Shown here piece by piece: positions 912 to 12,898 of a stretch of 64,000 nucleotides of DNA. Numbering within the stretch: the first letter of the stretch is position 1; each line of letters starts with the position of its first letter. The notes under the pieces were generated by a model. That model did no database searches. It saw nothing but the letters and a program-made list of their open reading frames with translations, and was not told the DNA's origin. Source of the stretch: Prochlorococcus marinus CUG1433 (lineage in GTDB: Bacteria > Cyanobacteriota > Cyanobacteriia > PCC-6307 > Cyanobiaceae); NCBI GenBank assembly GCA_017644425.1, contig JAEPLN010000001.1, forward strand, positions 868,001 through 932,000, given 5' to 3'. The position numbers and the translations under genes were made by a program.

Positions 912-1355
912 TTATTTACATTCGGCATTGCCAATTCCTGCACCTAAAACTGCACCCAAAGGGATGCTCCAACCATATGCATCACTTTTTGATAGAGACG
1001 CTGCAATTCCACCACCAATCAACCCGCCTAGAGTTGTGCTTCCAATACATTTTGGAGCAGGTTTATATTTCACATATGAAGTTTGGTGTTCATTCTTATG
1101 ATGATAATGTTTGAATGCATTGCGCTCACTATTGCATGGGATGGAAACTTTCTCACGATAAGATTTAACATAACCAGGAGACATTGAATTACCTGGTATA
1201 TATTCTTCCCTATATTCATAACGGAAGCACTTGTTTTCATATGCGTATCCTTTTTGTGACTCGTACGCTTCTCGATTACTGCGATCTCCAATGCTCTCAT
1301 AAGCATTTAGTGGAACAGAAGTACCCAATATAAGAGTTGCTATAAGAATTTTCAT
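912..1355 (-). CDS. Secreted glycine-zipper protein, unknown function
   Basis: A 147-residue protein starting at ATG with a clear signal peptide (ILIATLILGTSVPLNA). The middle is rich in Tyr, Glu and Lys with a few cysteines. The C-terminus has a glycine-zipper pattern (GGLIGGGIAASLS and then GAVLGAGIGNAECK) like the 17-kDa surface antigen/2TM glycine-zipper families, which insert in or associate with the outer membrane. Four cysteines follow the signal peptide and could form disulfides. It stands alone between the two flavodiiron genes on the opposite strand. The function is not known; an envelope location is inferred from the signal peptide and zipper. Confidence 0.75.
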   Translation of the reverse strand: MKILIATLILGTSVPLNAYESIGDRSNREAYESQKGYAYENKCFRYEYREEYIPGNSMSPGYVKSYREKVSIPCNSERNAFKHYHHKNEHQTSYVKYKPAPKCIGSTTLGGLIGGGIAASLSKSDAYGWSIPLGAVLGAGIGNAECK

Positions 1356-1440: not shown

Positions 1441-1767
1441 TTAGCAACTGTCACATGTGACAGTTAAGCAACATTCCACTATCCCTTTCCAAGCTGTAAA
1501 TCCATTAAGTGAATTTAAGAAAAAAATAAGAGGGCATTTGTTTGCCCTCTTCGAGTCGTATGCACCTCGCTGCCCACAAAGTCGATGAAGTGCTTTTGAA
1601 TCCTGAATTATTTCTACTCCAACTGAATGGAAAATGATAGTCGTGACAACCACAAAGAACAAATACTCGGGTAGAAATGCCCTATAAATTTTAAGTAAAA
1701 AGGAGGACAATATAAGTGTAGATACGGGAGGTCTTATGAAACTAATTACTCCTTTCACTATTCTCAA
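1441..1767 (-). CDS. Doubtful small membrane ORF
   Basis: A 108-residue frame with one strongly hydrophobic stretch (LPEYLFFVVVTTIIF) followed by a Cys/Arg/Lys-rich part. It runs straight through a 9-bp-stem hairpin with a T-tract (1518-1551, read on this strand) that looks like a rho-independent terminator, and it overlaps a rightward small ORF at 1736 with a better ribosome binding site. The central residues VEIIQDSKALHRLCGQRGAYDS look protein-like, so a shorter peptide is possible. I regard the full-length ORF as uncertain. Confidence 0.25.
   Translation of the reverse strand: MRIVKGVISFIRPPVSTLILSSFLLKIYRAFLPEYLFFVVVTTIIFHSVGVEIIQDSKALHRLCGQRGAYDSKRANKCPLIFFLNSLNGFTAWKGIVECCLTVTCDSC
1446..1465. 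repeat. Perfect 20-bp palindrome
   Basis: The sequence AACTGTCACATGTGACAGTT is its own reverse complement over all 20 bases. It lies in the small-gene segment between the two flavodiiron genes, just past the hairpin of the candidate sRNA. Its half-site order (TCACA-TGTGA) is the inverse of a CRP box and does not match NtcA (GTA-N8-TAC). It could be an operator for a dimeric regulator or a DNA structure; no function can be assigned. Confidence 0.6.
1518..1551 (-). terminator. Rho-independent terminator (leftward)
   Basis: A GC-rich 9-bp perfect stem with a 6-base loop stands out in AT-rich sequence and is followed, in the leftward direction, by ATTTTTTTC. In the rightward direction no T-run follows, so it acts on minus-strand transcripts. 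Confidence 0.6.
1518..1627 (-). ncRNA. Candidate small RNA with own promoter and terminator
   Basis: On the minus strand a TTGTTC (1657-1662) and TATCAT (1634-1639) pair with a 17-bp spacer looks like a sigma-70-type promoter. About 110 bases further a perfect 9-bp stem (AAGAGGGCA/TGCCCTCTT, 1528-1551, 6-base loop) is followed by a run of seven T, a textbook intrinsic terminator. The predicted transcript is about 110 nt. It could be a non-coding RNA or carry a short peptide from the overlapping frame at 1441-1767. No known family was recognised. Confidence 0.4.
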
Positions 1768-1882
1768 TCAAAACTTCCATGAAATAGATTTGATTAAAGA
1801 CGCAATGAAGAATAAAAGATTAGCAACTGAAAAATTGCATGATAATTACAGAAAAATTTATAAAAATCATCAATTTGCTTAG
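1736..1882 (+). CDS. Small 48-residue ORF, unknown
   Basis: An ATG follows GGGAGG at good spacing, the best ribosome binding site in this segment. The 48-residue peptide begins MKLITPFTILNQNF and ends KIYKNHQFA. It is basic, lacks a membrane segment or signal peptide, and its C-terminal two thirds (DLIKDAMKNKRLATEKLH) could form an amphipathic helix. It overlaps the start of the doubtful minus-strand ORF. No family is recognised; the case rests on the start signal and on its protein-like composition. Confidence 0.4.
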   Translation: MKLITPFTILNQNFHEIDLIKDAMKNKRLATEKLHDNYRKIYKNHQFA

Positions 1883-2088: not shown

Positions 2089-3891
2089 ATGTCAGATATT
2101 CATATAGGCTTACTTGCAGAAAATCAAAACTTATCCACATTTGAAATTAGCGAGAATTTTTATTGTGTAAGATTCTTAGACCAAAATAAAGAAAGATTTG
2201 AACTTGAATTTAACCTTGAAAAAGGGACCTCTTTTAATACTTTTTTCATTAGAAGTCATGAGGAACTTTTTATTATTCATCCACCTGAGAAAAAATATTT
2301 AAATTTATTTAGTAAAGTAATTTCTAGTTTTTCGGCTCAATTTAAATTAGATAAAATTAATTTCATTTCTGGTCATATTAATCCTCAAATTATTGAAACT
2401 TTAAAAAATGTAAGTTACCAATTTCAAAACACAACTATTACTTGCTCTAATCCAGGCTATAAACTTATTAGCGAACTTTGGAATCAAAGAAATCCTACCT
2501 TAGAAAACTTTATTGAAATTCAATTGCCTGAAATAAATATAATCAAAAAAGAACTTAATTTAGAATTAAATAACATTTCACTAGAGTTAATCCCCATTCC
2601 AACAGCACGTTGGCCTGGTGGCCTGATAATTTATGAACGTAATCAAGAAATACTTCTTAGTGAAAAAATTTTCTCTGCTCATATTGCTTCTGCTGAGTGG
2701 TCTGAAACAAATCGAATTAGTACAGAAATTGATAGGAAACATTTTTATGATTGCTTGATGGCACCAATGTCTAATCAAGTAGTATCAATAACTGAAAAAA
2801 TTGCAGATTATGACATTAAAACTATTGCACCATTACATGGTCCCGCCATCGAATATAGCTTAAAGAGCTTTTTAAATGACTATATTAGATGGGGCGAGAA
2901 TCTCTCAACAAATAATCCTAAGATCACTCTGATATATGCAAGTGCGTATGGAAATACAGCCTCAATAGGCGATGCATTGGCTAAAGGAATAAATAGAACC
3001 TCTGTAGAAGTTGAAAGTATTAATTGTGAATTTACACCTAATGATGTACTTGTAAAATCTATCAAAAATGCTGATGGATATTTAATAGGCTCCCCTACAT
3101 TGGGTGGTCACGCTCCAACTCCAATAGTTAGTGCACTAGGAACATTATTAGCAGAGGGTAATAGAGATAAACCAGTAGGAATTTTTGGTAGTTTTGGTTG
3201 GAGCGGCGAAGCTATAGATTTACTTGAAACAAAATTAAAAGACGGTGGTTTTAAGTTTAGTTTTGACCCTATAAGGATTAAATTCAGCCCAAATAAACCA
3301 AAGATTAAAGAGCTAGAAGAAATAGGAACTCACTTTGGAAGAAAAATTATAAAAAAAGCAAAGAAAAAACCTCGAAAATCAGACACTGGAATGATTACAA
3401 GCAAAACGGATCCAAAGCTACAAGCTCTTGGAAGAGTCATAGGTTCACTATGTGTCCTGACAGCCTCTAAAGGTAAAGATGAGAACAATATTAAAGGAGC
3501 TATGCTTGCATCTTGGGTTAGTCAAGCAAGTTTTTCTCCGCCCGGATTAAGTATTGCAGTAGCAAAAGATAGATCGGTAGAATCTCTTCTGCAAATAGGA
3601 GATTCATTCGCATTAAATATTCTTAGTGAAAAAGATTTTAAAGAACCTTTGAAAAGATTCACAAAGCCCTTTTCACCAGGAGAAGATAGATTTGAAGGAA
3701 TAAATATTGAATTAACTCCTAATGAGCAGATAATAATTCCTAACTCTTTAGCATGGTTGGATGCGTCTGTAAAAGAAAGAATGGAATGTGGAGATCATTG
3801 GGTAATATACGCTGAAGTACTACACGGTAATATACTAAAATCCGATTGTCTTACTGCAGTTCATCACCGTAAAACTGGTGCTAACTATTAA
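2089..3891 (+). CDS. Flavodiiron (diflavin) protein, ligand-poor type
   Basis: A complete 600-residue cyanobacterial flavodiiron protein. It has a metallo-beta-lactamase-like domain (about 1-260), a flavodoxin domain (about 275-425; TLIYASAYGNTASIGDALAKG binds FMN) and a C-terminal flavin reductase domain (about 445-600). These proteins reduce O2 to water with photosynthetic electrons. The usual diiron segment HxExDHSG reads HINPQIIE here, and the later His of the LHWP motif is Arg (ARWP), so several iron ligands are lost. That is the known pattern of Flv1-type partners, which work as heteromers with a ligand-intact Flv3-type subunit, probably the gene at the left edge. The FMN reductase gene follows after 17 bases. 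Confidence 0.93.
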   Translation: MSDIHIGLLAENQNLSTFEISENFYCVRFLDQNKERFELEFNLEKGTSFNTFFIRSHEELFIIHPPEKKYLNLFSKVISSFSAQFKLDKINFISGHINPQIIETLKNVSYQFQNTTITCSNPGYKLISELWNQRNPTLENFIEIQLPEINIIKKELNLELNNISLELIPIPTARWPGGLIIYERNQEILLSEKIFSAHIASAEWSETNRISTEIDRKHFYDCLMAPMSNQVVSITEKIADYDIKTIAPLHGPAIEYSLKSFLNDYIRWGENLSTNNPKITLIYASAYGNTASIGDALAKGINRTSVEVESINCEFTPNDVLVKSIKNADGYLIGSPTLGGHAPTPIVSALGTLLAEGNRDKPVGIFGSFGWSGEAIDLLETKLKDGGFKFSFDPIRIKFSPNKPKIKELEEIGTHFGRKIIKKAKKKPRKSDTGMITSKTDPKLQALGRVIGSLCVLTASKGKDENNIKGAMLASWVSQASFSPPGLSIAVAKDRSVESLLQIGDSFALNILSEKDFKEPLKRFTKPFSPGEDRFEGINIELTPNEQIIIPNSLAWLDASVKERMECGDHWVIYAEVLHGNILKSDCLTAVHHRKTGANY

Positions 3892-12437: not shown

Positions 12438-12898
12438 CAATCAAAATTAATTTACAATATCTTATAACAAGAACGACCAATTTTCGTAGTATATATTACG
12501 AATGTCTTCACTAATAACTAATTTTTTGATCAACTTCATTAAATTTCTTTTTAAAGAACCTTTTTAATCTGAAATATAAATAATTAGTGAGTGAAAAGCA
12601 ATTTATCTAAATTGTTTACAACGAGGGATTTAAGAATCGAAAAGTCTACACAAATAACCTCTTTGTTTTAAGTTCAAAATCTCTTTATTCCCACTCAGTA
12701 AATCCATTGTTCAAACCCCAACTACGAAAGGAATAGATTTTGTGTGAAAAACCTTCTTATTCCAAAAATTATCTAAATAAAGCATAGTTATTTAATTAAT
12801 TTTAGAGGGTTAGTTCTATGTAACTCAAGAATTTTTGTTTTTATATTATGCTTTTAACACTAATATAAGAACTAATAATCAGATTCAAAACATAAAAA
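12438..12898. other. Gene-poor stretch containing a guaA-end-like site
   Basis: About 460 bases without an intact gene. It holds the leftmost copy of the guaA-end-like repeat (12685-12705). From about 12750 it has GAAAAACCTTCTTATTCC, which resembles the leader remnants near 8000 and so may be the 5' region of the TPR-sulfotransferase that follows. No tRNA or terminator is seen. Confidence 0.5.
12685..12705 (-). repeat. guaA-3'-end-like core, copy 4 (degenerate)
   Basis: Read on the minus strand this is GGA TTT ACT GAG TGG GAA TAA, i.e. GFTEWE-stop, against GTIEWE-stop at the true guaA end. On the plus strand TTTATTCCCACTCA is shared exactly with the copy at 19567, and the left flank (AGTTCAAAATC) resembles the flanks of the copies at 17030 and 19567. 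It is the most diverged core copy. It marks the far end of the module holding the sulfotransferases and the rhomboid gene. Confidence 0.55.

Follow-up and report, generated by a model that had tools for sequence, protein, structure and literature searches.

The stretch between two flavodiiron-like genes of Prochlorococcus marinus CUG1433 (1-756, cut at the window edge, and 2089-3891, both on the plus strand) had been marked in an initial annotation, which placed it correctly between these genes, as a candidate stand-alone small RNA on the minus strand, and the question raised by the locus was whether it is such an RNA and whether its position hints at a function. The window, meaning the whole stretch of DNA that was analysed, is 64,000 nt long; Prochlorococcus are very abundant photosynthetic microbes of the ocean. 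Judged from sequence, we consider it reasonably probable that the element is one copy of a multi-copy Prochlorococcus small RNA gene family, of about 108 nt, with its own terminator, lying back to back with a peptide gene and acting in trans. Both the divergent peptide gene and the multi-copy family had been missed by the initial annotation.

On the minus strand from 1639 to 1520, a TATCAT box was found to be followed by a conserved stretch and then by a 9-pair hairpin with a T-rich tail. The candidate small RNA was placed at 1520-1627 (minus strand, about 108 nt), with its start estimated from the -10 hexamer, its end set at the terminator tail and its boundaries taken from homologue alignments. 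The 113 nt from 1632 to 1520 (minus strand) folded to -30.3 kcal/mol (z -2.63), with 4 of 200 shuffles folding as low. The strong minus-strand intrinsic terminator that had been described was borne out; it occupies 1520-1551 (AAGAGGGCA-AACAAA-TGCCCTCTT, with a T-rich tail after the stem) and its hairpin, at 1551-1528, has 9 pairs (5 G-C) and a loop of 6, then ATTTTTTTCT. A 5-kb scan gave 4 terminator-like sites (2.4 in shuffles), of which this one has the longest stem. Upstream of the terminator, a single-sequence fold gave helix 2 (1553-1602, minus strand), composed of an outer stem (1602-1598/1557-1553) and an inner stem (1593-1587/1568-1562), and before this lies a conserved segment (1603-1622, minus strand; consensus GTAGGAGTAGAAATAATTCAGG) that is mostly unpaired in the fold and may be a seed region for pairing.

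The distribution of the element was established with a covariance model, R1, built from 63 copies and searched against 334 genomes of the family (at least 85% complete, 37 genera) with strict filters under which weak matches may be lost. Matches were confined to 2 of the 37 genera and occurred in 121 of the 334 genomes, 102 of 115 in the window's genus (g1) and 19 in a second genus (g25), with one to five matches per matching genome; under these filters the other 13 genomes of the window's genus had no R1 match. We take the window's genus to be the high-light type and the second genus to be probably the low-light-I clade. BLASTN with 301 nt found something in 229 of 266 genomes of the genus, partly the peptide region alone, and the R1 count is the better one as it does not take in such peptide-only genomes. 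An exact core pattern was present at 71 loci, all from Prochlorococcus save 3 from uncultured Synechococcaceae. The source genome has two full R1 matches and one weak partial match (12564-12663, plus strand; model positions 48-147, E 9.2e-5), which by eye is without a good terminator stem and is probably a decayed third copy. Strain MED4 has one match, at 1348250-1348402, and MIT9301 and MIT9312 are presumably also among the carriers; with cultured strains included, expression is open to direct testing. If transcribed, this would be a small RNA family in roughly nine in ten of the sampled genomes of the window's Prochlorococcus genus, without an Rfam 15 match and with most copies linked to a short ORF that is itself uncharacterised.

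Of 12 genomes searched in the second genus, 7 carried two R1 matches arranged head to head, with an overlap of 26-28 nt between the 5' ends, and the pairs that were inspected flank a palindromic centre with short ORFs on either side. Seven loci of this genus (L121, L122, L125, L128, L131 and L134 among them) were also scanned for neighbouring Rfam RNAs, and 6 of the 7 had a Cyano-1 (Yfr2-type) RNA no more than about 1 kb from the element, as did L087 in genome G024. Searching phage records with the element gave nothing at E 1e-3. The exact core was seen on a 6.7-kb IMG/VR contig (L263), where its neighbours are a rhomboid-like ORF and phage ORFs of T4 type; from a reading of these ORFs, the first part of this contig looks host-like and the rest T4-like, and it is possibly a chimaera, or host DNA within a phage.

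The promoter that had been proposed was only partly upheld by comparison of the copies. Its letters are present (TTGTTC at 1662-1657, 17 nt, TATCAT at 1639-1634, minus strand), but as a promoter the pair is weaker than described, matching the sigma-70 consensus at 3 of 6 (-35) and 5 of 6 (-10) positions and being absent from the sites found in a promoter scan, which gave 16 promoter-like sites in 5 kb against 19.7 expected and thus no excess. The -10-like hexamer (1634-1639) is TAnnnT in 61 of 63 aligned copies. The -35-like hexamer (1657-1662) is not conserved: TTGTTC was found in 1 of the 63 copies, with TAGTGC in 35 and AAGTGC in 12, and no conserved -35 was seen among them. A small conserved inverted repeat does lie 5' of the -10 (1655-1668, minus strand), with GAGTA opposite TTCTT here and TGCTT in most copies, and could possibly be a DNA operator or an RNA hairpin. 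As for the spacing of about 110 nt between promoter and terminator, counting from the last base of the -10 puts the hairpin about 83 nt away and the last base of the tail at 114 nt; the figure therefore suits the whole RNA.

Alignment A1, on which these comparisons rest, holds 63 of 80 distinct stretches, leaving out the truncated L050, L064 and L079 and several close relatives. At least 7 of 8 terminator stem pairs were formed in 60 of the 63 copies, and in 59 the 8 nt after the stem contained 5 or more T. Among 81 distinct copies from both genera, 67 had a hairpin of at least 6 pairs near the 3' end, against 12.1 in shuffles, and 63 combined a hairpin with 4 or more T among the 8 nt after it (2.7 in mononucleotide shuffles), leaving 18 copies that failed this second test. 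The stem occurs in variants changed on both arms (for example AAGAGGGC/GCCCTCTT, AAAGGGGC/GCCCCTTT, AAGAGAGC/GCTCTCTT and AAGGGAGCGA/TCGCTCCCTT). Across A1, 10 cells were changed on both sides yet still paired; shuffles gave 3.1, and 0 of 500 reached the observed number. The four pairs with such changes all fall in the terminator. Counted by pairs over the whole structure, the 4 with both-sided changes did not stand out from shuffles (2.8; 154 of 500 as high), and sliding the structure along the alignment gave 4-8 pairs and 6-13 cells. Standard pairs made up 93.0% of cells against 92.6% in shuffles (17 of 500 as high) and 38-55% in the slid structures, the latter being a lenient control because the structure was derived from these same sequences.

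Helix 2 behaved differently from the terminator in the search for homologues with covariation that had been proposed as a check, a search which produced the family and compensated terminator stems but no both-sided change in helix 2 in A1. In its outer and inner stems, 91.7% and 89.4% of cells nonetheless held standard pairs, and these stems appeared in single-sequence folds of 49 and 47 of the 63 copies, respectively. In L076, L081 and L087, with GAACTTC/GAAGTTC, helix 2 looks compensated by eye and is out of register in A1. RNAalifold applied to A1 retained only the upstream repeat and the terminator, and lost helix 2.

A small frame overlapping the element and running through the terminator had been noted previously, with a well-conserved protein there named as grounds against the RNA. 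The frame exists (108 aa, TTG start, 1441-1767, minus strand), and in 35 of the 63 copies a stop or frameshift interrupts it ahead of the terminator, counting this frame only. The stretch is most likely an untranslated RNA gene, with the overlapping frame non-coding. Taken over these comparisons, the call of a stand-alone minus-strand small RNA appears to hold up, on stronger grounds than were first offered: many genomic contexts, a terminator with compensated variants that is kept well above shuffles on the minus strand only, the broken frame and a MED4 copy without a peptide gene.

Facing away from the RNA, a 48-aa peptide gene of subfamily A was identified at 1736-1882 (plus strand), with a Shine-Dalgarno-like GGGAGG at 1726-1731. 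In 71 of the 81 distinct copies, a divergent ORF (40-80 aa) that has a Shine-Dalgarno-like stretch begins no more than 340 nt away, a count given without a computed chance level; it supersedes a tally of 103 of 115 loci with a 45-64-aa ORF, in which places were double-counted and loci without an ATG near the expected place were skipped. Subfamilies were sorted by length and motif, and dN/dS was taken over pairs with dS of 0.05-3, giving medians of 0.249 for A (18 sequences, 132 pairs), 0.062 for B (24 sequences, 257 pairs) and 0.168 for C (14 sequences, 91 pairs). By these ratios, the three main peptide subfamilies are under purifying selection. For peptide A, Pfam and NCBIfam gave no match above their curated cut-offs, and PHROGs and PADLOC nothing at E of 1 or below; of all the peptides tested, none reached a curated cut-off (Pfam, NCBIfam), PHROGs gave weak matches only (best E 0.056) and PADLOC none.

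The purifying selection on the peptide, and the presence of a divergent ORF beside most copies, also suit a different explanation, in which the block would belong to the plus strand as a cis-regulatory 5' leader of the peptide mRNA, and what looks like a terminator on the minus strand would be the mirror image of that leader. Fold stability does not separate the strands, as the plus strand folds equally well: the mean z was -3.56 for minus and -3.62 for plus in 32 of the 63 copies (every second row), and -1.5 and -1.38, respectively, in 32 copies folded without the terminator. By eye, one hairpin closer to the centre seems suited to the plus strand, and in the second-genus copies inspected the left arm appears to form a GAGTC..GACTC stem just 5' of a Shine-Dalgarno, on the same strand as a peptide gene. 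Against this, a T-rich tail follows the hairpin on the minus strand in 63 of 81 distinct copies and on the plus strand in 12, and similarity among the copies stops at the minus-strand tail, beyond which the alignment has no shared sequence. One inner helix-2 pair is U.G in 51 of the 63 copies and U-A or C-G in 9, which favours the minus strand because, read on the other strand, those 51 copies would have A.C mismatches there; G.U is nearly fixed in two columns of the upstream repeat, which favours the same strand. With fixed columns set aside, the counts of G.U against A.C were modest (outer stem 12:7, inner stem 17:12, terminator 8:7). Moreover, MED4 retains the RNA block without a neighbouring peptide gene, and in some genomes the peptide start has only the near part of the block (about 54 nt, partial matches) upstream. 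We therefore consider a leader of the peptide mRNA unlikely.

A minus-strand RNA could also work by transcription attenuation, in which case it would be a leader and its terminator would control a gene further along that strand. Some second-genus loci, such as L121, L125 and L128, have the appearance of this, with the hairpin directly followed by a Shine-Dalgarno-like stretch and a same-strand 56-aa ORF (MTRKRDK...). In the window's genus, however, what lies downstream on the same strand varies and is often distant or on the opposite strand, and in the window 164 nt separate the terminator from the start of the next ORF of 55 aa or more, making attenuation quite improbable as an account of the family.

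A toxin-antitoxin-like pair, with the RNA silencing the peptide mRNA, would suit the combination of a short peptide and a small RNA in multiple dispersed copies, and the overlapping RNA/short-peptide pairs Yfr8/Yfr9 and Yfr6/Yfr14 of MED4 are proposed to be of this kind in PMC2518516. The transcripts predicted here, with starts that are inferred, would diverge without overlapping, the predicted pairing of the RNA with the peptide-gene strand was no better than in shuffles (mean z -0.75; 5 of 63 below -2) and the block stands alone in MED4, so that we regard this as very unlikely. Least probable of all, and highly so, is a selfish repeat (a miniature mobile element or recombination cassette) whose hairpins would promote its own spread and have no RNA role in the cell, since the low peptide dN/dS and the terminator variants changed on both arms argue against it, although the many sites, the variable presence, the insertion between flavodiiron genes and the weak partial copy in the window would fit.

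For the preferred reading, a trans-acting small RNA, the family, its boundaries, the terminator, the non-coding frame, the purifying selection on the peptide and the dispersed sites are read from sequence, and transcription, start site, co-regulation and pairing mode are what we infer. Transcription would run from a -10-only promoter near 1634 to the intrinsic terminator at 1520, and the product would be an untranslated RNA of about 108 nt made up of the conserved, mostly unpaired 5' segment, an imperfect hairpin (helix 2) and the terminator. As the RNA usually lies back to back with the peptide gene, the two would probably be driven from a shared regulatory centre and move together as a cassette. 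The RNA itself would act in trans, most likely by base pairing through the conserved GGAGUAGAAAUAAUUCAGG segment, which we propose less firmly than the small RNA reading itself. A target search in 8 genomes gave 115 sequences nearly complementary to the conserved segment and 58 when the pattern was reversed, counts that take in the element's own copies and are not interpretable. That RNA and peptide form a two-gene cassette with one shared centre, spreading as a unit and together forming a module for regulation or defence in a lineage poor in regulatory proteins, seems to us rather doubtful.

The redox or light link that had been suggested from the position of the element was not supported. 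In MED4 the gap between the flavodiiron genes is 17 nt, in the window it is 1332 nt, and at 11 measured element-bearing loci about 0.6-1.75 kb of variable cargo (757-2088 in the window) splits the pair. Sequence comparison indicates that the RNA-peptide cassette in the window is an insertion between the flavodiiron genes. At the right flank of the cargo (L114, 2398-2416) a few bases of the stop-codon region are, by eye, repeated, a possible target-site duplication. The element adjoins one or both flavodiiron genes in 23 fetched loci, the window included, a set that was chosen for likeness to the window; in eight other single-contig genomes (G012, G019, G022, G023, G030, G032, G042 and G043; G032 is taken to be MED4) no fetched copy lies beside these genes. 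Copies occupy many different contexts, with downstream neighbours of many kinds. With the genes 17 nt apart in MED4 and the fetched copies of those eight genomes elsewhere, position therefore offers no functional hint. The second flavodiiron-like gene (2089-3891) resembles the first and has matches to flavorubredoxin and flavodoxin models below the cut-offs. Within the cargo, a 147-aa ORF (912-1355, minus strand) has a weak glycine-zipper match (E 0.015, below cut-off), and at eleven loci of the flavodiiron site (L001-L011) a similar ORF comes after the element; 5' of the window's ORF is a perfect 20-bp palindrome (AACTGTCACATGTGACAGTT, 1446-1465), the surroundings of which recur at several other element loci.

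The element would represent a new family of small RNA, a kind of RNA that is already known. A search of Rfam 15 gave 0 matches in the whole window, the best score in 1400-2000 being 22.9 bits against a gathering score of 50, and neither the known Yfr families nor RF01704 (the glutamine-II riboswitch) reached their gathering scores in the window. Such a family was not found in the literature searched, the scope of which stopped short of the supplementary tables of PMC3898218 (the TibYfr list) and PMC7368042, and the MED4 copy may already be listed in one of these. In a 2008 array and RACE study of MED4, Table 1 gives 14 ncRNAs, none at 1348250-1348402, and the nearest to the MED4 copy is Yfr20, about 12 kb away and called the only ncRNA of island 5 (PMC2518516). 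When the element was compared by BLAST with 13 of these 14 loci (Yfr12 excluded), the RNA block was unmatched and only short matches to the end that carries the peptide start or to the flanks were seen. Rfam matches in the genome taken to be MED4 fell exactly at the Table 1 coordinates of Yfr10, Yfr11 and Yfr20, an RF02360 match lay within the Yfr8/Yfr9 overlap and a second RF02363 match was within one base of Yfr16 (PMC2518516).

In being small, clade-restricted and dispersed, the element resembles the Yfr small RNAs of MED4 (Yfr8/9, Yfr10, Yfr11/16 and Yfr20; RF02360, RF02362, RF02363 and RF02367), which lie partly in islands and in some cases have two similar copies or a short peptide frame (PMC2518516); it differs from them in that its RNA block matches none of the 13 loci compared and has no Rfam match. 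Likewise Yfr103 is an ncRNA of picocyanobacteria that occurs in multiple copies and has an imperfect palindrome ahead of its start, but is 290-328 nt long in Synechococcus and has homologues in Synechococcus and in the low-light strains SS120, NATL1A/2A, MIT9303 and MIT9313 (PMC5069720). With R1 matches in 2 of the 37 genera under strict filters, the element may differ from Yfr103 in its distribution as well.

The glutamine-II riboswitch (downstream-peptide motif, RF01704), which precedes short peptide genes, is a structured RNA of the same organisms, and at three loci of the second genus (L125, L131 and L134) one lies no more than about 1 kb from the element. The element is unlike it in that RNA and peptide are divergent here and the window is without an RF01704 match. 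In MED4, Rfam places a glutamine-II riboswitch at 627894-627956 (L105 395-457, minus strand), opposite to Yfr14 (627811-628062, plus strand), and Yfr14 would therefore be antisense to the riboswitch.
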